From positions 255,299 through 319,298 of the forward strand of contig JAHWKK010000001.1 of NCBI GenBank assembly GCA_019347945.1: DNA of 64,000 bases, given 5' to 3'. Under the pieces are notes generated by a model that saw only the letters and a program-made list of their open reading frames with translations, did no database searches and had not been told where the DNA came from. Of this stretch, positions 14,028 to 54,826 are shown one piece after another (within the stretch, counting starts at the first letter, position 1; every line of letters starts with the position of its first letter). The stretch comes from Acidobacteriota bacterium. Its GTDB lineage: Bacteria; Acidobacteriota; Thermoanaerobaculia; Gp7-AA8; JAHWKK01. The position numbers were made by a program, and so were the translations under genes.

Positions 14028-14112
14028 TGTGGGTTTGAGGTTGGAGGTTGGAGGGGGCGGCTCGTGAGTGAAGGGTACGAGTACTGAGAAGGTACCTTCG
14101 CGGCGCCTTCTG

Positions 14113-14240
14113 TCACTCTTCACTCTGTCACTCTTCACTCTTCACTCTTCACTCTTCTTTTCACTCTTCACTCTTCACTCTTCACTCTTCACTCTTCACT
14201 CTTCACTCTTCACTCTTCACTCTTCACTCTTCACTCTTCT
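14113..14240. repeat. 7-bp tandem array (CACTCTT) reaching into the end of hemG
   Basis: About 17 mostly perfect CACTCTT units, broken by a few CTG or TTTT slips. On the minus strand the unit reads AAGAGTG. The array covers the stop codon of hemG and its last codons (VKSEE). The same unit, in the other orientation, lies at the 3' end of the GH94 gene near 44.3 kb, which ends in the same residues. Copy number in such arrays is usually variable. Confidence 0.9.
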
Positions 14241-41912: not shown

Positions 41913-44281
41913 AACCCGAATCGGGGGAATCCGGTTATGGCCACTTTTCCGGCGACGGTCTCGAATACGTCGTCACGAATCCGCGCACGCCGCGCCCCTG
42001 GTCGAACATCATCTCGAACCAGCGCGTGGGACTCGCGGTCAGTCAGTCGGGGAGCGGCTTCACGTGGATCGACAATTCGCAACTCGCGGTCATCACGGCC
42101 TGGCAGCAGGACTTCGCCAGCGACACCTCGGGCAAGTTTCTCTTCGTTCGCGATAGGGAGTCGGGAGAGGTCTGGTCGCTCTCGCCCGCGCCGGTCTGGA
42201 GGGATCCGGAGTCATACCGGTGTCGTCACGGCATCGGGTACACGACGTTCGAAGCGGAGAATCACGAGATTGCGAGCGAGTGGACGCTGTTCGTTCATCG
42301 GCACGATCCGGTCGAGCTGTGGCTCGTCACGCTCCGGAATCTCGGGTCGAGACCTCGTCGCCTCGCGCTGACCTCGTACCTCGAGTGGTGCTGCGGGGTT
42401 GCGCCCGCGCCGCGGCGCGAATTTCACAAACTCTTCCTCGAGAACGCCTTCGATCCATCGCACCGCGCGGTCCTCGGGTGGAATCACATGTGGGACGTGC
42501 CGTCGAAACGGTACGGGCACTGGAACGCTGATTTTCCCTATGTCGCGGCGTTCGCGACGACGGAAGCGGTCACGGCCGCGGAGGGGGAAAAGGTGGCGTT
42601 TCTCGGACGGTACGGGACGCTTCGCGATCCGTGCGCTCTCCGGCAGGAAACGTGGGAGGGGCGGTTCGGACGCCACGTCGATCCGGTCGGTGCGATGCGG
42701 TCGGCGGTCGAGCTCGCACCGGGTGGTGAGATGCAGATCGGATTTTCGCTGACGATGGACGTCTCGCCGGAGTCCGCTCTCCGCTCCTCGACGGCATGGA
42801 GCAAACCGGCGTCGATCGAGCGCGAGCTGAACGAGGTCCGAAAGAGCTGGCGAAGCCTGCTTGCGACGCACCGACTGGAGACCGGTGACGATCGCTTCGA
42901 CGGGCTGATCAACGACTGGGTGCGCTATCAGGCGATCTCGGCCAGGTTGTGGGGACGCTGTGGTTACTACCAGCAGAGCGGCGCGTTCGGATTCCGTGAC
43001 CAGCTGCAGGACTCGCAGGTCTGGCTGACGATCGAGCCGGAGCATTGCAGGGAGCAGATCAACCTTCATGCGGAGCACCAGTTCGCCGACGGATCGGTCT
43101 ATCACTGGTGGCACCCCCTCACGGAGCAGGGGCTCGTGACGACGATGACCGACGATCTGCTCTGGCTTCCGTTCGTGACTGCCAATTACATCCGGGAGAC
43201 CGGGGACTACGCCATTCTCGAGGATCAGGTCCCGTTCCTCGATCAGAGGGAGCGCTCGCCGCTTCACGAGCACGTTCGCCGCGCTTTCGAACGCGTCTTT
43301 CTCCGGACGAGCGAGCGCGGACTTCCCCACATCGGGGCGGGCGACTGGAATGACGGGCTGTCGGCGGCCGGCCTCCAGGAGCGTGGAGAGTCGGTCTGGC
43401 TGGGCCATTTCCTCGCGGGGCTTCTGGCCGACTGGAGGGAGATCGGCCGGCGAGGAGGTCATGCGCCCTTCGCCGCGGACTACGCCGACCGGCGGGCCGC
43501 ACTCGTCGCGGCGATCAACGAGCACGGCTGGGACGGAAGCTGGTACTGGCGCGCGAGCCTGGACGACGGGTCGAAGATCGGCAGCGCGGAAAACGACCGG
43601 GGCTCGATCTTCCTCAACGCGCAGACGTGGGCGATTCTCAACGACGTCGCCCCGCCCGATCGTGCCCGAACCGCCTGGGCCGCGGTGTGCGAGAGGCTCG
43701 TGACGAACGTCGGCGCGCTGCTTCTCAGTCCCGCTTACGACGAGCCGGTTGCTCCAATCGGATACATCACCCGCTATGCGCCGGGTCTCCGGGAGAATGG
43801 CGGGGTCTATACGCATGCCGCGACGTGGGCGATCGCGGCCGCCGCGAAGATGAAGGATGCCGGGACGGTCGGCAGACTGCTCGAAGCAATCGATCCGACC
43901 AACAAGGACCCGGAGCGTTACTGGGCGGAGCCGTACGTGCTGCCGGGCAATGTCGACGGACCGGAGTCACCGCTGTTCGGCCGGGCGGGATGGACCTGGT
44001 ATACGGGATCGGCTGCGTGGCTTCATCGCGTCGTCTCCGAGTGGGTGTTCGGGATTCGTCCCGACTGGAACGGGCTGAAGGTTGATCCCTGCCTTCCTCC
44101 GTCCTGGTCGTCGGTGCGGATGACGCGACCGTGGCAGGACAGCCTCTTCGAAATTCAAATCGAGCGCGGGCAAAAGCCGCAAATCGAGCTCGACGGTCGT
44201 GAGCTTTCGGGCAACGTCATCGAGCCGCTCCCCCGGGGCGGCACGCACCGGGTGAAGGTAGTGGTGAAGAGTGAAGAGTAA
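41909..44281 (+). CDS. GH94 glycoside phosphorylase
   Basis: A 790-residue enzyme starting at TTG within a TTGA overlap. The N-terminal domain (YGHFSGDGLEYVVTNPRTPR) and the alpha/alpha-barrel with HIGAGDWNDGLSAAG are typical of GH94; D482 in WNDG is the proton donor. The enzyme cleaves beta-glucosides with phosphate to give glucose 1-phosphate. Size suits cellobiose, laminaribiose or related disaccharide phosphorylases; sophorose-type oligomers are also known in GH94. There is no signal peptide, so it acts in the cytoplasm. Its last codons (VVKSEE) lie in a tandem array. Confidence 0.9.
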   Translation: MKPESGESGYGHFSGDGLEYVVTNPRTPRPWSNIISNQRVGLAVSQSGSGFTWIDNSQLAVITAWQQDFASDTSGKFLFVRDRESGEVWSLSPAPVWRDPESYRCRHGIGYTTFEAENHEIASEWTLFVHRHDPVELWLVTLRNLGSRPRRLALTSYLEWCCGVAPAPRREFHKLFLENAFDPSHRAVLGWNHMWDVPSKRYGHWNADFPYVAAFATTEAVTAAEGEKVAFLGRYGTLRDPCALRQETWEGRFGRHVDPVGAMRSAVELAPGGEMQIGFSLTMDVSPESALRSSTAWSKPASIERELNEVRKSWRSLLATHRLETGDDRFDGLINDWVRYQAISARLWGRCGYYQQSGAFGFRDQLQDSQVWLTIEPEHCREQINLHAEHQFADGSVYHWWHPLTEQGLVTTMTDDLLWLPFVTANYIRETGDYAILEDQVPFLDQRERSPLHEHVRRAFERVFLRTSERGLPHIGAGDWNDGLSAAGLQERGESVWLGHFLAGLLADWREIGRRGGHAPFAADYADRRAALVAAINEHGWDGSWYWRASLDDGSKIGSAENDRGSIFLNAQTWAILNDVAPPDRARTAWAAVCERLVTNVGALLLSPAYDEPVAPIGYITRYAPGLRENGGVYTHAATWAIAAAAKMKDAGTVGRLLEAIDPTNKDPERYWAEPYVLPGNVDGPESPLFGRAGWTWYTGSAAWLHRVVSEWVFGIRPDWNGLKVDPCLPPSWSSVRMTRPWQDSLFEIQIERGQKPQIELDGRELSGNVIEPLPRGGTHRVKVVVKSEE

Positions 44282-44339
44282 AAGAAGAGTGAAGAGTGAA
44301 AGAAGAGTGAAGAGTGAAGAGTGAAGAGTGAAAGAAGAG
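44263..44339. repeat. GTGAAGA tandem array at the 3' end of the GH94 gene
   Basis: Degenerate 7-bp units of GTGAAGA with AAA interruptions. The array begins inside the last GH94 codons and includes its stop. It is the same unit, in opposite orientation, as the hemG array at 14.1 kb. Confidence 0.85.
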
Positions 44340-44397
44340 ACGCCGCGAAGATAACCTCTCGATATTCTCACCTTCTTTTACAACCAAACCCCAGAAA

Positions 44398-44429
44398 CCT
44401 TCGCCGTCCTTCGGCGGCTCAGGATGACG
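44398..44429. repeat. Dispersed hairpin repeat (TCATCCTGAG type), copy 1
   Basis: Contains CGCCGTCCTTCGGCGGCTCA followed by GGATGACG, with an internal CGCCG/CGGCG hairpin. The same sequence in the opposite orientation is at 57038-57072, and a variant is at 56936-56973. Confidence 0.8.
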
Positions 44430-44450
44430 ATGTGAGAGATCCATCGCCTT

Positions 44451-44490
44451 TCCTGATCCCTGATCCCTGATCCCTAATCCCTTCCCCTGA
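44451..44490. repeat. CCCTGAT tandem array reaching into the end of the GH1 gene
   Basis: About five degenerate TCCCTGA/TCCCTAA units. The array covers the stop and the last codons (IRGRD) of the minus-strand GH1 gene, where it reads GGGATCA on the coding strand. Confidence 0.8.
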
Positions 44491-46975: not shown

Positions 46976-47310
46976 CCGGGAGGGCGAGCCTCTGGCGAGC
47001 CGCGATCCTCGAAAATCTCTCCTGAAACCTGTGACCTTCCTGAACCCGGAGGGCGAGAGTCCTGCCGAGCCGCACCGTCAGGAGGCGCGAGGAACGTTTG
47101 ACCGGGAGGCCGAGCCTCTGGCGAGCCGCGATTCTCGAAAATCTCTCCTGAAACCCGCGGCCTTCCCTGAACCCCGGAGAAGGGTGAGATCCTCGGTTTC
47201 AGGATGCGAATCGCAAGGCCGTGGCTCGCCGGAGGCTCGCCCCTCCCGGGTTAGATCCTCGGTTTCAGGATTCGAATCGCAAGCTCGCGGCTCGCCGGAG
47301 GCTTGCCCTC
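46976..47310. repeat. Cluster of four related repeats, two per orientation
   Basis: Two direct copies (46976-47029 and 47104-47155) with CGAGCCTCTGGCGAGCCGCG and CTCTCCTGAAACC, then two copies in reverse (47186-47248 and 47251-47310) with TCCTCGGTTTCAGGAT and GGCTCGCCGGAGGCT. A shorter GGAGGGCGAG-TCCTGCCGAGCCG hairpin lies between (about 47049-47075). The gap between the ATPase and asparaginase genes (46968-47359) consists mostly of this cluster and holds no gene. It looks like a BIME-type arrangement of REP-like elements. Confidence 0.8.
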
Positions 47311-47359
47311 CCAAGCCAGATGCGATGTCTTGCCGGGCGCGACCGAATACAATCGCCGG

Positions 47360-48622: not shown

Positions 48623-50083
48623 ATGAGCAGAGACTCCGACATCGAAATCCTCAACTTCATCGACGGAGAGCTCGGTTCGGCCAGCTCGGGCGCGACGCTC
48701 GATCTGTTCGAGCCCGCGACCGGTGAGCGGGTGGGTCGTGTCGCCGCGAGCGACGCGACAGACGTCGACCGCGCCGTGGCCGCCGCGAAGAGGGCGTTTC
48801 CCGGATGGAGCCGGACGCCGGCGGCCGAGCGTTCCCGGCTTCTTCTCCGGCTGGCCGATCTGATCGAAGGAGACTTCGAGAATCTCATCGAGATGGAGTC
48901 CCGCGATACCGGGAAGAGCATCTCGCTCGCGCGGAAGCTCGACATCCCGAGGGCCGTGCTCAATTTCAGATTCTTCGCGACGGCGATTCTCCACGAGCAG
49001 GCGGAGTCGCACGCCACCGATCAGGCCGCGGTCAATTACACGCTGAGGCAGCCTCTCGGCGTCGCTGGCCTGATCTCGCCATGGAATCTTCCGCTCTATC
49101 TCCTCTCCTGGAAGATTGCTCCCGCGATCGCCACGGGCAACACGTGCGTCGCCAAACCGTCGGAGCTGACTCCGCGGACGGCGATGCGGCTCTCGGAGCT
49201 CGTCGCAGAGGCGGAGATTCCTCGGGGAGTCATCAACATCGTGCATGGCCGGGGGCCGGAGGCAGGCGCGGCCATCTCGGGGCACCCCGAGGTGCCGCTG
49301 ATCTCGTTCACCGGCGGAACCGCAACCGGCGAGATCGTCGCGCGAACCGCCGCCCCGATGTTCAAGAAGCTTTCGCTCGAGCTCGGAGGAAAAAACCCCA
49401 ACGTGATCTTCGCGGATGCTGATCTCGACGAGGCGATCGCCGGGACGCTCCGTTCGAGCTTCTGGAATCAGGGTGAGATCTGCCTATGCGGATCCCGCAT
49501 TCTCGTCGAGAGGTCGATCTTCGACGAATTCATGAAGAGATTCGTCGAGGAAACCGAAAAGCTCGTCGTCGGCGATCCTCTCGACGACGCGACCGACGTC
49601 GGAGCGCTGATCAGCCGCGAGCATCTCGACAAGGTCCTCGGATACGTCGAGCTCGCCCGGGAGGAAGGGGGCGAGATCGTGAGCGGCGGAAAGCGGCCCG
49701 GATCGCTTCCCCCGCGGATCGCGAACGGCTGGTTTCTCGAGCCGACGATCATCACCGGGCTCGGCAGCGAGTGCCGTACGTTTCAGGAAGAGATCTTCGG
49801 CCCGGTCGTCACGGTGACGCCGTTCGATGACGAGGATGAGGCAGTCCGGCTCGCGAACGACGTCCGCTACGGACTCTCGGCGTCGGTCTGGACCAGCAAT
49901 CTCGGCCGGGCTCATCGCGTGGCTGCGCGAATCGATTCCGGAACCGTGTGGGTGAACACCTGGCTGCTTCGCGATCTGCGCACAGCGTTCGGCGGGATGA
50001 AAGCGAGCGGGGTCGGGCGCGAAGGTGGCCGCTGGTCGCTCGAGTTCTTCACCGAGCCGAAGACAGTGTGTGTGAAGCTGTAG
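48623..50083 (+). CDS. Aldehyde dehydrogenase, 2-aminomuconate/ALDH8-like
   Basis: A 486-residue NAD-dependent dehydrogenase. N155 in SPWNLPLYL stabilises the oxyanion, E253 in LELGGKNPN is the general base, and C287 in NQGEICLCGSRILVERSIF is the nucleophile. The ICLC context with a second cysteine is typical of ALDH8A1 and bacterial 2-aminomuconate/2-hydroxymuconate-6-semialdehyde dehydrogenases, which act after ring cleavage in tryptophan or aromatic breakdown. The other genes of that pathway are not present here. Confidence 0.85.
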   Translation: MSRDSDIEILNFIDGELGSASSGATLDLFEPATGERVGRVAASDATDVDRAVAAAKRAFPGWSRTPAAERSRLLLRLADLIEGDFENLIEMESRDTGKSISLARKLDIPRAVLNFRFFATAILHEQAESHATDQAAVNYTLRQPLGVAGLISPWNLPLYLLSWKIAPAIATGNTCVAKPSELTPRTAMRLSELVAEAEIPRGVINIVHGRGPEAGAAISGHPEVPLISFTGGTATGEIVARTAAPMFKKLSLELGGKNPNVIFADADLDEAIAGTLRSSFWNQGEICLCGSRILVERSIFDEFMKRFVEETEKLVVGDPLDDATDVGALISREHLDKVLGYVELAREEGGEIVSGGKRPGSLPPRIANGWFLEPTIITGLGSECRTFQEEIFGPVVTVTPFDDEDEAVRLANDVRYGLSASVWTSNLGRAHRVAARIDSGTVWVNTWLLRDLRTAFGGMKASGVGREGGRWSLEFFTEPKTVCVKL

Positions 50084-50084
50084 G

Positions 50085-50293
50085 GAGCAGGAGCCAGGAT
50101 CCAGGATTCAGGATGCAGAGAGTGTAGGGCCGCGAGGGGCGAGCGGCGATGTTCCCTGTCAGGAGATTGTTTGATCGCGCGTAGCGCGCATATTGCCTGT
50201 CTCTTACCTCTCATCCGTACGTCTTACCTACCGTCTTCATCTCTTACCCATCACATTATCTCTTACATCTTCTCACCGCCGCTTACCTCTCGT
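50085..50293. repeat. Repeat-rich gap: CAGGA array, then CTCTTACC array
   Basis: Directly after the dehydrogenase stop come CCAGGAT/TTCAGGAT units (50085-50120), then a hairpin-prone GC-rich stretch (GCGCGTAGCGCGC), then at 50201-50293 six or so degenerate CTCTTAC units. No gene is visible. Confidence 0.65.
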
Positions 50294-50325
50294 CTCTGGC
50301 CGCTCGCCGCTCATCGAGTTAGAGT

Positions 50326-51117
50326 ATGGGGATGGGGCAGCGACGAATGCCGGCGGTCTTCATCGGGCATGGCAATCCGATGCATGCGATCACGGAGAAC
50401 GTGTGGGCGACCGCCTGGCACGAGCTCGGGGCGACGATTCCGAAACCGCGAGGGATCGTGTCGATCTCGGCGCACTGGTTCATCCGCGAGACTGCCGTGA
50501 CCGCGATGGAGAAGCCGGGGACGATTCACGACTTCGGAGGCTTTCCCCGGGAGCTGTTCGCGGTCGAGTACCCGGCGCCCGGAGATCCGAAGCTGGCCGC
50601 AGAGGTCTGCGAGCTGATCACAGAGGCGGCCGAATGCAGAATGAGCGAGGACTGGGGCCTCGATCACGGAACGTGGGCGGTGCTGCGTCACATGTTCCCC
50701 GACGCCGAAGTACCGGTCGTTCAGCTGTCGATCGATCGGACGAGATCAGGCCGGGATCATTTCGACATCGGAACGGCTCTCAGACCTCTCCGTGAGGATG
50801 GCGTCCTGATCCTCGGAAGCGGCAACGTCGTCCACAATCTCCACGCAGCGAGCTGGGGCAACGACGAAGTTCATCCGTGGGCAGTGTCGTTCGAGGAGCG
50901 GGTGCGCAGAGCAATCACCGATCGCGAGTTCCAGCCGCTCATCGAATACGAAGACTTCGGCAACGAAGGCCGGCTCGCCATCCCGACCCCCGATCACTAT
51001 CTGCCGTTGCTCTATGTCCTCGGAGTCGCGCGCGCCGACGACGACGTTGAGTTTCCCACCGGCGGTATCGATCTCGGTTCGGTCTCGATGCTCTCGGTCG
51101 TGTTCACGAATTCTTAG
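50326..51117 (+). CDS. ygiD: 4,5-DOPA dioxygenase-like extradiol dioxygenase (YgiD)
   Basis: A protein of up to 263 residues of the DODA/LigB-type class III extradiol dioxygenases, very like E. coli YgiD. MPAVFIGHGNPMHAI, SISAHWFIRETAVTAME, TIHDFGGFPRELF and GSGNVVHNLHAASWG hold the metal-binding histidines and the catalytic site. The family opens catechol rings such as DOPA. Translation could begin at 50326 or at 50347, where the conserved part starts. Confidence 0.88.
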   Translation: MGMGQRRMPAVFIGHGNPMHAITENVWATAWHELGATIPKPRGIVSISAHWFIRETAVTAMEKPGTIHDFGGFPRELFAVEYPAPGDPKLAAEVCELITEAAECRMSEDWGLDHGTWAVLRHMFPDAEVPVVQLSIDRTRSGRDHFDIGTALRPLREDGVLILGSGNVVHNLHAASWGNDEVHPWAVSFEERVRRAITDREFQPLIEYEDFGNEGRLAIPTPDHYLPLLYVLGVARADDDVEFPTGGIDLGSVSMLSVVFTNS

Positions 51118-51135
51118 TGCCTGTTGAAAACCCCG

Positions 51136-51900
51136 CTAGGAAAACCACGAGCCGCCATTGACGTCGATGGTCGCGCCGTTGAGATACGAGGCGAGGGGCG
51201 AAGCGAGAAAGAGAATCACGCCGGCGACGTCGGCCGGAATGCCGAGGCGCCCCAGGGGAACCTCGGCGCGAAGCTCGTCACCGCGTCGGGCGACCTCGTC
51301 GGCGGCCATGTCGGTATCGATGAAGCCGGGCGTGATGGCGTTGGATGTGATCCCGTCCTTCGCGCACGCTCGCGCGATCGAGCGGGTCAGATTGAGCAGC
51401 GCCGCCTTCGATGCGCCGTAGGAGATGTACTCGGTCTCGCCGCGCGTCGATGCGCGGGATGCGACATTGATCACGGTGCCACCGCCGTGCTCGCGCATCG
51501 ACCGCATCGCGAGCCACGTGAGTTGCGCGGTTCCGAAGAGGTTGACGTCGAATACCGTTCGCCATCCCTCGACCCACTCCTCGAAGCTCTCTCCGTCGAA
51601 CGGATGATGCGTGAAAATCGCCGCATTGTTGACCAAGACGTCGATTCGTCCGAAGCGCTCGATCGCCGACCCCGCGAGCGCCTGAATGTCATCGTTCGAG
51701 GCGAGATCGGCCTGGACCGCGACCGATCGTTCGGGGCCGATCGTCCGGACGACCTCTTCGGCGGCGGACCGCTGCGAACCGTAGTGGACGACGACGCGCG
51801 CGCCGGCTCGCCCGATGAGCTCCGCGGCGGCTCGTCCGATTCCGCGCGATGCTCCCGTGATCAGTACGGTGCGATCCGATAGATCGATCTCGACGCTCAT
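51136..51900 (-). CDS. SDR-family oxidoreductase, FabG-like
   Basis: A 254-residue short-chain dehydrogenase. TGASRGIG at 15-22 binds NAD(P), NNAA lies at 91-94, and the catalytic S148, Y161 and K165 are in place (VASRAS, YISYGASK). ITPGFIDTDMAADEV and SYLNGATIDVNGGSWFS are standard for 3-oxoacyl-ACP reductase-like members. The substrate cannot be told. Confidence 0.9.
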   Translation of the reverse strand: MSVEIDLSDRTVLITGASRGIGRAAAELIGRAGARVVVHYGSQRSAAEEVVRTIGPERSVAVQADLASNDDIQALAGSAIERFGRIDVLVNNAAIFTHHPFDGESFEEWVEGWRTVFDVNLFGTAQLTWLAMRSMREHGGGTVINVASRASTRGETEYISYGASKAALLNLTRSIARACAKDGITSNAITPGFIDTDMAADEVARRGDELRAEVPLGRLGIPADVAGVILFLASPLASYLNGATIDVNGGSWFS

Positions 51901-51917
51901 GGGAGGGATGTTAGCCG

Positions 51918-52132
51918 ATGGAGCACCGGGAACGGCCCGTCACCGAGCGACCCGTGCTGCTCGGTCTCGCCGGGTTCCTCTTCGGTTCTCCAGTGACCCC
52001 GGCGGTTCCTGGTCGTGCCGGAGACGACATTCTGAGGGTGATTCCCGGTCATCTGGAGCTCGGAGCCGCTGACCACGTCGTACACATCCTCCTCGGGGCC
52101 ATCTACCTCGTGGGCGGATTCATGACGCGTAT
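51918..52132 (+). pseudogene. Fragment of a small membrane protein
   Basis: Reads VTERPVLLGLAGFLFGSP, then DDILRVIPGHLELGAADHVV and HILLGAIYLVGGFM. This looks like the end of a DUF4383-like membrane protein, with two hydrophobic helices. The N-terminal helices are missing, and the frame then runs on into the FRG gene as shadow sequence. I read it as a decayed remnant. The rest of the gap to 52219 shows nothing. Confidence 0.4.
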
Positions 52133-52219
52133 TGTCGGAACCCGACCTCCGGAAACGACGGCGTCTGAACGGGATAAGACCGGATCGCCTCGGTCACATT
52201 TGTTGCACGGCACGAAGAG

Positions 52220-52999
52220 GTGGATGAGATTCGTGTGGACAGCTGGCCGAGGCTCCACGAGGAGCTCTTCGCCGGATCGTGGCTGCCGGAGATCGGGCGC
52301 CATCGTTCACCATTCGTGTTTCGTGGGTCCGATTCCGCGCCGCACACGCTGAGAAGCTCCCTGCAGAAGGGTGGATTCGAGAAGTACGAACATCATCTGC
52401 TCAAACACTTCCGGAAATACTCCCGCCGAGGAACCAACGCGAGTGAATCGGCGTGGGACTGGCTTGCGCTCGCGAAGCATCACGGCCTTCCGACGCGCAT
52501 GCTCGACTGGACCTATTCGCCCTACATCGCGCTCCATTTCGCGACGGCGGATCTGGAACGTTTCGATCAGGACGGCGTCATCTGGTGCATTGATTTCGCT
52601 GCCGCTCACCGGCTCCTCCCTCCGCGGATCCGTCAATCGCTCGATGAAGAGGAAGCTCGCATCTTCACCGGTGAGATGCTGAGCGGACTCGCTTCCACAA
52701 TGCACGAGTTCGATACGCTGGCTGCCGAGTCGGAATTCATCCTGTTCTTCGAGCCACCCTCGCTCGATGACCGGATCGTGAACCAGTTCGCACTCTTCTC
52801 GGTCCCCTCCAGCGCCCGTCTCGAAGTCGAGGACTTCCTCGCCGCGCATCCTCACATTCTTCGCCGGATCGTCTTCCCGTCGTCACTGAAGTGGGAGATC
52901 CGCGACCACCTGGACCAGGCGAACATCACGGAGCGGGTTCTTTTCCCCGGGCTCGATGGACTGGCGTCATGGCTCAAGCGTTATTACACGAGTCGCTGA
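52220..52999 (+). CDS. FRG-domain protein
   Basis: A 259-residue protein with the FRG motif in PFVFRGSDSAPHTLRSSLQK, then WLALAKHHGLPTRMLDWTYS and PYIALHFATADLE, matching the FRG domain (PF08867). The biochemical role of the domain is unknown; it occurs in phage and mobile regions as well as in single chromosomal genes. Translation starts at GTG; an ATG four bases on is out of frame. It is followed by the DUF2071 gene after 39 bases. Confidence 0.8.
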   Translation: MDEIRVDSWPRLHEELFAGSWLPEIGRHRSPFVFRGSDSAPHTLRSSLQKGGFEKYEHHLLKHFRKYSRRGTNASESAWDWLALAKHHGLPTRMLDWTYSPYIALHFATADLERFDQDGVIWCIDFAAAHRLLPPRIRQSLDEEEARIFTGEMLSGLASTMHEFDTLAAESEFILFFEPPSLDDRIVNQFALFSVPSSARLEVEDFLAAHPHILRRIVFPSSLKWEIRDHLDQANITERVLFPGLDGLASWLKRYYTSR

Positions 53000-53038
53000 T
53001 CGGTCCCGTGGTACGTCTCCTGCTTCGAGTCGGCGGCA

Positions 53039-53830
53039 ATGCCGTTTGCCGTGGGATTCCAGCGTTGGGAGCACCTTCTGTTCCTTCACTGGGAGGTGAA
53101 GCAGGAGCTGATTCAGCGCCGGCTGCCGGAGGGAGTGAGGGTCGATACCTTCGAAGGAAGCGCCTACGTGAGCATTCTTCCGTTCCGGATTCCGGAGTCC
53201 CGGCCCCTCCTGTTCCCGCGCAAACTCTCTCCGCTGCTTCCGGGCTCATCCCTCATCGAGCTCAACTTCCGGACCTACGTTCGGGGGCCGGGCGATGAGC
53301 CTGCAATCTGGTTCTTCAGTGTCGACGCTTCGAGCCCTGCGGCGGTTGCCGGGGCGCGGCTGATCTACCGGTTGCCCTATTTCCGGGCAGACATGTCTCA
53401 CACGATCGAGAACGAAACCTTCCACTTCAAATCGGTTCGCCGCACCGGTGCACCGGCGCGATGCGCGGTGTCGTACCGGCCATCCGGTACGGCGGCTCCC
53501 GCGATGCCGGGAACTCTCGACCACTTCCTCGCCGAGCGTTACGTTCTCTTCGCCGGATCCGGACGCCGGCTGCTCCGGGCACGGGTCGAACACGCTCCTT
53601 ATCCTCTGCGCCGAGCGGAGGTGGGACATCTGGAGGAGAACCTCATCGAGCTGGAAGGATTCGAATCCGCCAGGAGACTTCCGGTCAATCACTATGCGGC
53701 CGGACTGGACGTGAAGATCTCTGCGCCGGAACTGGTCCGGGCAGAAGACAGGAGCCAGGAATCAGGAGACAGGATTCAGGAAAAGCCTGGGAAAGACAGA
53801 GGTTTCGTCGCCGGCTTCTCTAATCGTTGA
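53039..53830 (+). CDS. DUF2071 protein (YqjF-like)
   Basis: A 263-residue protein. WEHLLFLHWEVKQELIQRRL, YVSILPFRIPESRP, ELNFRTYVRGP and PAIWFFSVDASSPAAVAGAR match DUF2071 (COG3361), related to the acetoacetate decarboxylase fold. Its function is unknown. The last 25 or so residues (AEDRSQESGDRIQEK) are encoded by a CAGGA array and are not part of the family. Confidence 0.82.
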   Translation: MPFAVGFQRWEHLLFLHWEVKQELIQRRLPEGVRVDTFEGSAYVSILPFRIPESRPLLFPRKLSPLLPGSSLIELNFRTYVRGPGDEPAIWFFSVDASSPAAVAGARLIYRLPYFRADMSHTIENETFHFKSVRRTGAPARCAVSYRPSGTAAPAMPGTLDHFLAERYVLFAGSGRRLLRARVEHAPYPLRRAEVGHLEENLIELEGFESARRLPVNHYAAGLDVKISAPELVRAEDRSQESGDRIQEKPGKDRGFVAGFSNR

Positions 53831-53938
53831 CGATATTGTCTGAAGCAGCGACCAGAGTTCCTGAGTCTTGCTTCCAGGTGCGTAGTTCGCTCCTGATTCC
53901 TGTCTCCTGATTCCTGTCTCCTGATCCCTGATCCCTGC
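53747..53938. repeat. Inverted pair of short tandem arrays after DUF2071
   Basis: A purine-rich array (53747-53780; units of CAGGAGACAGGAATCAGG type) lies inside the 3' end of the DUF2071 gene. Its reverse (53891-53938; TCCTGATTCCTGTCTCCTGA units) lies past the stop. At least 15 bases (AATCAGGAGACAGGA) pair perfectly. The transcript could fold into a long hairpin between this gene and dedA. Confidence 0.75.
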
Positions 53939-53973
53939 TTTTTTCCGGCCCGCTTCCGGCATCCCGGGCCGGC

Positions 53974-54609
53974 ATGGACTCGTGGATCGTCGACATGGTG
54001 AAGGCGATGGGGCTCTGGGGCGTAGCTCTCCTGATGTTTGTCGAGAACGTCTTCCCCCCGATCCCCTCCGAGCTCATCATGCCACTCGCCGGATATCTGA
54101 CGATCGCCGGTGACCTTCGCGTCTGGCCCGCGATCCTCGCCGGAAGCTTCGGGTCGCTCGCCGGCGCGTCACTCTGGTACTTCCTCGCGAAGCGATATTC
54201 GAAGGGACGATTCCGGTCATTCATCGAAAGGCGCGGTGTGTGGTTCGCGATGGATCTCGACGATCTCGACCGGGCACAGTCGTGGTTCGAACGCCATGGG
54301 AAAACCGCGGTATTCGTCGGCAGGCTCGTTCCGGGAATCCGCACGCTGATCTCGGTGCCGGCGGGACTGAGCGGCATGGGAATCGCGCCGTTCCTTCTCT
54401 GGTCGGCGCTCGGAACATTCGTCTGGACGGCTTTTCTGACGTTCGCGGGGCGATTTCTGGGCCAGCAGTTCGAACAGCTCGAACAGTGGATCGGCCCGAT
54501 CTCCTGGGTGGTACTCGGCGGCATGCTGGTCTGGTACGTGGTGGGTGTGGTGCGAAAGATGAGGAAGAGCAAGAGGGGCGAGCGAGGAGCGATGAGAGAC
54601 GAGCGATGA
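53974..54609 (+). CDS. DedA-family membrane protein
   Basis: A 211-residue inner-membrane protein with two family motifs: FVENVFPPIPSELIMPLAG near the N-terminus and GRLVPGIRTLISVPAGLSGM in the middle (SNARE-associated domain, PF09335). DedA proteins act as lipid flippases or support envelope homeostasis. The last residues (RGERGAMRDER) come from a GAGCGATGA array and are probably not functional. Confidence 0.9.
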   Translation: MDSWIVDMVKAMGLWGVALLMFVENVFPPIPSELIMPLAGYLTIAGDLRVWPAILAGSFGSLAGASLWYFLAKRYSKGRFRSFIERRGVWFAMDLDDLDRAQSWFERHGKTAVFVGRLVPGIRTLISVPAGLSGMGIAPFLLWSALGTFVWTAFLTFAGRFLGQQFEQLEQWIGPISWVVLGGMLVWYVVGVVRKMRKSKRGERGAMRDER

Positions 54610-54631
54610 GTGACGAGCGACGAGCGATGAG
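54566..54631. repeat. GAGCGATGA-type array at the end of dedA
   Basis: Degenerate units of GAGCGA, GATGAGA and GACGAGC begin in the last dedA codons and continue past its stop, like the arrays after hemG, GH94, GH1, asparaginase, the dehydrogenase and DUF2071. Confidence 0.65.
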
Positions 54632-54826
54632 GAACCGAGAAACGAGCTCCGTCTGATTCCCGATTCGTTCGGTCCTCCGAGAGGCAGGTCCCCTTTTTGT
54701 TTGGTGTGACTCCAACAACCCGTACGAGCTCGTCCGCTTTGCCGCCGCATCATTCCCAAAAGTTATTCGGCGTGTATCTTGCTACTTATTATTAGACACA
54801 TTCACCAAACGAAAGGAGAGCGAGAC

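Follow-up and report, generated by a model that had tools for sequence, protein, structure and literature searches.

Convergent heptamer arrays at gene edges in an Acidobacteriota genome, including an inverted pair between a DUF2071 gene and a VTT-domain gene

Introduction

The closest described counterparts of the repeats reported here are the heptamers GGGAATC and GGGGA(C/T)T of Xanthomonas and Nostoc, which are mostly intergenic (Rehm et al. 2015, PMC4692102; this and the other papers cited are represented by the portions consulted). In Xanthomonas they form convergent pairs, with 70 and 75 cases in two genomes, and divergent gaps are under-represented. Within 50 bases after stops the G-rich strand is mostly the coding strand, and within 50 bases before starts it is mostly the non-coding one. 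Some copies overlap the stop codon, and no function was found. The Xanthomonas and Nostoc units have three or four G in a row and fold into quadruplexes in vitro. The same paper cites a suggestion that traces heptamers to slippage of the polymerase over a 7-nt contact.

Three other kinds of repeat invite comparison. The TAACTGA heptamers of Beggiatoaceae occur as intergenic arrays in distant phyla (MacGregor 2015, PMC4679880). A survey of inverted repeats found them enriched after bacterial stop codons, with a peak at 50-80 bases and spacers mostly of 4-5 bases (PMC13155455). The GTAG- and CGTC-tagged REPs are extragenic single palindromes of 20-40 bp (PMC3733652). Among the literature matches listed, none dealt with long repeat words of the CAGGAGT or GAGTGAA type, which may be in print elsewhere.

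The DUF2071–VTT locus

The window, that is, the whole stretch of 64,000 nucleotides analyzed, contains an inverted pair of arrays between a gene of the DUF2071 family and a VTT-domain gene. Its parts are as follows.

53039-53830, + strand: DUF2071 gene (profile match to PF09844 over residues 8-224)
53749-53781, + strand: purine arm, five CAGGANN units by sequence, inside the 3' end of the DUF2071 ORF
53782-53890, + strand: spacer of 109 bases, an imperfect palindrome, with the TGA that ends the DUF2071 ORF
53891-53937, - strand (pyrimidine on the + strand): pyrimidine arm, five NNTCCTG units (53891-53923) and two degenerate units
53938-53944, + strand: CTTTTTT (C-T6) immediately 3' of the pyrimidine arm, a hairpin and T-run layout by sequence
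53974-54609, + strand: downstream VTT-domain gene (PF09335, E 4.8e-22)

A weaker unit, CAGAAGA, lies ahead of the purine arm at 53742. The preliminary description had proposed that the CAGGA array can pair with an inverse array about 110 bases on, and this was confirmed, the two arms having five units each and the spacer 109 bases. A three-unit inverted pattern with a gap of 85-115 bases occurs once in the window and not at all in 100 dinucleotide shuffles. RNA folding of the gap likewise bore the proposal out: the region 53730-53960 folds at -114.2 kcal/mol against a shuffle mean of -76.8 (z -7.2), and 53742-53944 gives z -9.1. The spacer by itself (z -2.5) is a weaker palindrome.

The same description saw no classical terminator in this gap. 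A scan of positions 49900-54800, which admits loops of 3-8 only, is indeed empty there, but the C-T6 tract had gone unmentioned. With it the locus has two features of an intrinsic terminator, a stable hairpin after the gene end and a T-run; the short loop (3-8) is absent, its place being taken by the 109-base spacer. To judge from the sequence, the hairpin and T6 could still terminate transcription. No known RNA family was matched in the window at Rfam gathering scores, and the start-facing flank of the locus has no -10-like match.

Two other repeats lie nearby. A GC-rich inverted repeat at 53945-53973 ends just before the VTT start codon and folds no better than shuffles, and CGAGCGA heptads at 54579-54647 cover the 3' end of the VTT gene, at the next gap downstream.

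The final 27 or so codons of the DUF2071 ORF come from the array and the spacer. Of 20 homologues from other genomes we translated 11 (the closest 12 minus L037) from the start of the match; counted from there, nine of them stop after 227-234 amino acids. Here array-encoded sequence sets in near residue 237 of 263, and thus the array appears to have taken over the native stop. Presumably the array overran that stop codon and the protein now bears a repeat-encoded tail. In relative G002 (locus L038) the homologue extends to 254 and closes with a GAGTGAY array. In relative G009 (L043) the frame stays open to 430, far beyond the homologous end, meeting a GTGAAGA hairpin array about 600 bases farther along. 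Both belong to order-level relatives, and both have heptads of other sequence near the homologue: a short-loop hairpin at L043 2768-2870 (z -8.3) and an array at L038 2255-2420 that by eye also forms a short-loop hairpin. In the stretches around the DUF2071 homologues (L032-L051) tblastn gave no VTT or FRG match by which the orthologous gap might be recognized.

A like layout had been reported in the window at 50085-50293.

50088-50118, + strand: purine array of four complete CAGGANN units, 4 nt past the stop of an ALDH gene
50200-50312, - strand: irregular pyrimidine-rich stretch, TCTTACC-like, before a ygiD-like gene

The layout stands, a purine array being followed by a pyrimidine-rich stretch before the ygiD-like gene, but the fold does not: the RNA folds no better than shuffles (z +0.84) and the two parts do not fold together. 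Within the pyrimidine stretch only 50277-50312 registers as a 7-nt array, and with the lowest score.

Heptamer arrays across the genome

The source genome (3.72 Mb, 49 contigs) contains 423 matches to three CAGGANN units, 243 forward and 180 reverse, and none to the reversed control pattern. A stricter CAGGANN pattern marks 80 array edges, and GAGTGAAGAGTGAAGAG has 167 forward and 201 reverse matches. The DUF2071–VTT gap is one among dozens of array-lined gaps in this genome.

For a sample not chosen by its arrays we took 20 position-fixed stretches of at most 20 kb together with the window, 464 kb in all and 86% coding according to a purpose-made hexamer-based gene caller. Self-match at lag 7 defines 31 intergenic and two coding segments. 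Lags 4-6 and 8-13 give zero or one intergenic segment each; lags 14, 21 and 28 repeat the lag-7 signal, and lags 15, 18, 19, 22, 25, 26, 29 and 30 give 1-4 segments. Arrays are present in 19 of the 260 called gaps and belong to widely unlike families: CAGGANN, CAGGGAT/TAGGGAT, GAGTGAA, GAGCGAC, GGTTGGA and GGTTGCC. Elsewhere in the window, at 47182-47312, a 66-base tandem unit stands in two copies just upstream of a called gene start.

The G-richer strand is directed away from the nearer gene in 29 of 30 gap arrays of this sample (p 6e-8). For the CAGGANN family we fetched 40 stretches around listed edges, leaving out two edges on contig C49; with the window these hold 101 CAGGA arrays. Opposite-strand neighbours within 1.1 kb are purine-then-pyrimidine in 36 cases and in the other order in three, each of the three having a called gene in between, so that within one called gap the purine array comes first in 36 of 36. 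The spacers of these 36 pairs measure 61 to 982 bases and have no common core. A palindrome, GTCATyCTGAG, occurs in 15 of them, and in 18 copies in the 464 kb sample. It may be of the CGTC-tagged REP type (PMC3733652); the REPs too are extragenic palindromes, but single ones and not tandem arrays.

The arrays detected on the two sides of a gap need not be of one family. Unlike heptads face each other at window positions 14032/14128 and 44302/44452 and at L104 3722/4412, where single partner-like units are possible. The first of these gaps (14032-14239) is convergent and combines two heptad families, with GGTTGGA units at its left and, at its right, a long TCACTCT array running into the right gene's end. 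At 44264-44482 a GAGTGAA array covers one gene's end and a CCTGATC array lies at the next gene's end, with the palindrome piece CTCAGGATGAC between them. By eye, some gaps contain nested arrays.

In layout the arrays are of the same kind as the convergent heptamer pairs of Rehm et al. 2015, already known in Xanthomonas. The two share the period of seven, the convergent pairs within a gap and the polarity at gene edges. They differ in that CAGGANN has GG only, that several families occur in one genome, that divergent gaps are not avoided, and that the arrays here end within a few nt of stops and close to -10-like boxes. The TAACTGA heptamers resemble the present ones in being intergenic arrays spread over distant phyla, but those described in PMC4679880 are direct repeats, most of them just upstream of starts, with a single inverted repeat. 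Terminator-type repeats (PMC13155455) are also inverted and also follow stops, whereas ours have tandem-repeat arms and spacers of 61-982 bases and for the most part follow the stop by 1-9 nt.

Stretches of three or more G, as quadruplexes require, are by reading absent from CAGGANN, which has GG only, and from GAGTGAA, which has no GG; the CAGGGAT/TAGGGAT family does contain runs of three G. We reject the quadruplex as a common cause, since heptads with GG only, and G-poor ones, occupy the positions that the CAGGGAT family occupies.

Outer edges of the arrays

Edges were counted for the CAGGA arrays of the 40 loci and the window, omitting eight arrays inside called ORFs and one without a neighbour. 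Stop-facing edges lie 1-9 nt after the called stop codon in 31 of 45 cases, and start-facing edges within 9 nt in five of 47. One far stop-facing case (471 nt) proves to be an array that starts at the 3' end of a tRNA-Leu gene; at L055 1703-1793 the heptads begin at the final two bases of that gene.

In start-facing flanks of 10-60 nt a TATAAT-like hexamer agreeing in five or six of six places occurs in nine of 19 (control mean 2.1), and one agreeing in four or more places in 12 of 19 (control mean 5.5). For the control, pieces of equal length were drawn 2000 times from 145 upstream regions unscreened for arrays, and p was printed as 0.000 at both thresholds. Convergent gaps with at least two arrays leave a median of 6 bases outside the arrays, against 57 in 43 array-free convergent gaps, a comparison which with n=3 is too small to lean on.

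Relatives and other phyla

We compared 59 relatives, all from outside the family of the source genome. Three CAGGANN units were found in 10 of them, mostly as CAGGACT, and the reversed control matches the CAGGACT cases as well. In stretches of 20-90 kb from eight relatives, heptad segments numbered 35 in G001, 7 in G002 and 17 in G012, with none in G005, G008, G022, G058 and G059; some are short-loop inverted pairs near genes. The polarity was not seen in these order-level relatives (for and against: 14 and 11 in G001, 4 and 2 in G002, 3 and 9 in G012). Unlike the source genome, G002 also has 8- and 9-base periods (L117-L120), and G005 an 8-base period (L124-L125).

Searched for the inverted arrangement, named genomes yielded 106 stretches. 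Among the 80 listed, the labels include Acidobacteria, Planctomycetota, a cyanobacterium, Prevotella, Alcanivorax, Gemmatimonadaceae, Armatimonadetes and Verrucomicrobia. With gene ends taken from the longest ORFs, 37 of 68 stop-facing distances in 81 elements fall at 0-13 nt and 10 more overlap the ORF end; of 77 start-facing distances 10 fall at 0-13 nt. Two ties aside, 25 of 30 arrays of other heptads in these loci keep to the polarity.

Repeat growth, hairpins and other explanations

Given the arrays observed, their dominant 7-nt period, their polarity in the source genome, their tight edges, their folding potential and the lack of a gene-context bias, we lean, with middling confidence, to regarding them as 7-nt repeats that expand within limits set by selection, the hairpin and any termination being secondary. 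Arrays of 7-base units from a few families would expand at gap edges, the G-rich strand running inward from each gene, and expansion would stop at sequence that cannot be lost: a stop codon, a tRNA end or a -10 box. Convergent arrays would then yield an imperfect palindrome as a by-product. The driver would be mutational, a gain of repeats in 7-nt steps as earlier literature proposed for heptamers, while purifying selection would set the outer edges and any effect on transcript ends would be incidental.

One might instead suppose that the paired arrays are selected hairpins which stop transcription from both directions or shield 3' ends from exonucleases, like terminators or BIMEs. We think this rather unlikely. 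In its favour, each of the 32 CAGGA pairs with a spacer below 400 nt has half or more of its shorter arm paired with the other in the minimum-energy fold, the DUF2071–VTT element folds far better than its shuffles and ends in T6, the 3' arm is the pyrimidine arm on both strands, and a relative has the short-loop heptad hairpin of L043. At least four T occur among the first eight bases outside 21 of 98 edges; TTTT itself lies outside only eight of the 98 (one of 49 stop-facing and seven of 49 start-facing). Over the inner 33 bases of the 36 pairs, an arm pairs with its own partner at -41.6 kcal/mol and with a swapped one at -40.7, so that arms are not significantly matched by locus (p 0.11). 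The sharing of free dinucleotides between own arms is slightly higher (p 0.07), and the two small differences leave room for weak co-evolution. Unlike heptads face each other across some gaps, and the locus near 50 kb has no fold.

A transcript-ending device should favour convergent and avoid divergent gaps, and the paired elements show no such bias, which counts against termination: 20 are tandem, nine convergent and six divergent (n=35, one more pair having a neighbour unknown), against 152, 50 and 58 among 260 gaps (p 0.60 over all contexts, p 0.20 against gaps above 100 bases). Neither were convergent gaps enriched or divergent ones lost among the 64 named loci with both neighbours, 13 of which are convergent and 14 divergent. 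The terminator-like hairpin put forward in the preliminary description keeps its folding potential, but a barrier to transcription or RNA decay is not supported as the arrays' reason, in view of the absent context bias, the arms not significantly matched by locus, the uncommon T-runs and the unlike heptads in some gaps. Where the arrays lie agrees better with repeats that grow as far as useful sequence allows than with a dedicated transcription stop.

A protein that binds the heptads might use the arrays as gene-edge marks, insulators or a -35-like part of promoters, in which case pairing would be irrelevant. The CAGGA core is kept while the dinucleotide is free, the polarity is set relative to the nearer gene, and -10-like boxes lie just outside arrays, all of which would suit such a protein. 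Several unlike heptads occupy the same position, however, and we consider this explanation quite improbable.

Poorer still are the prospects of miniature mobile elements that a transposase inserted and whose ends are arrays, an explanation which we hold very improbable. They would account for dispersed families, for the nested arrays and for the palindrome recurring in spacers, and the genome has eight Y1_Tnp matches. Against them, the flanks carry no target-site repeat (mean longest match 3.97 for own and 3.96 for permuted flanks, p 0.48; 36 pairs, 25-base flanks) and the spacers lack a common core. An element with a conserved core is rejected on these two grounds. A link to the transposases is likewise rejected, as four of the eight Y1_Tnp loci were examined and showed neither a heptad array nor GTCATyCTGAG within the stretch examined.

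Telomere-like addition of repeats to DNA 3' ends at breaks in the gap, inward from both sides and with filler captured between, would fit the inward G-rich polarity on both sides, the not clearly matched arms and the filler with its other repeats, but it seems extremely unlikely, as we know of no bacterial enzyme that acts so, and reverse-transcriptase-templated addition is rejected because the genome has no PF00078 match at E 0.001 (3 of 14 control genomes were positive).

Significance of the arrays

By itself, slippage leaves unaccounted for the strand polarity, the way a few families recur at many loci, and the presence of the CAGGANN family in many phyla, and it is the polarity and the same-family recurrence that hold the interest. 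Repeat growth as an explanation also has against it that order-level relatives lack the polarity and that the DUF2071–VTT locus has no -10-like match in its start-facing flank. It is conceivable, though we would give it a small chance only, that many phyla share a process which adds G-rich 7-nt repeats at gene edges with fixed inward polarity, largely regardless of sequence, and that the outer limits of the arrays map stop codons, RNA ends and -10 boxes.

Heptamers are abundant in bacteria, and the source genome separates features that were mixed in earlier cases. The period of seven and the polarity persist without GGG, without clearly matched arms and across different sequences, so that quadruplexes or terminator hairpins alone are insufficient to explain them. 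The edges of the arrays might serve as a natural map of where gaps cease to tolerate change.
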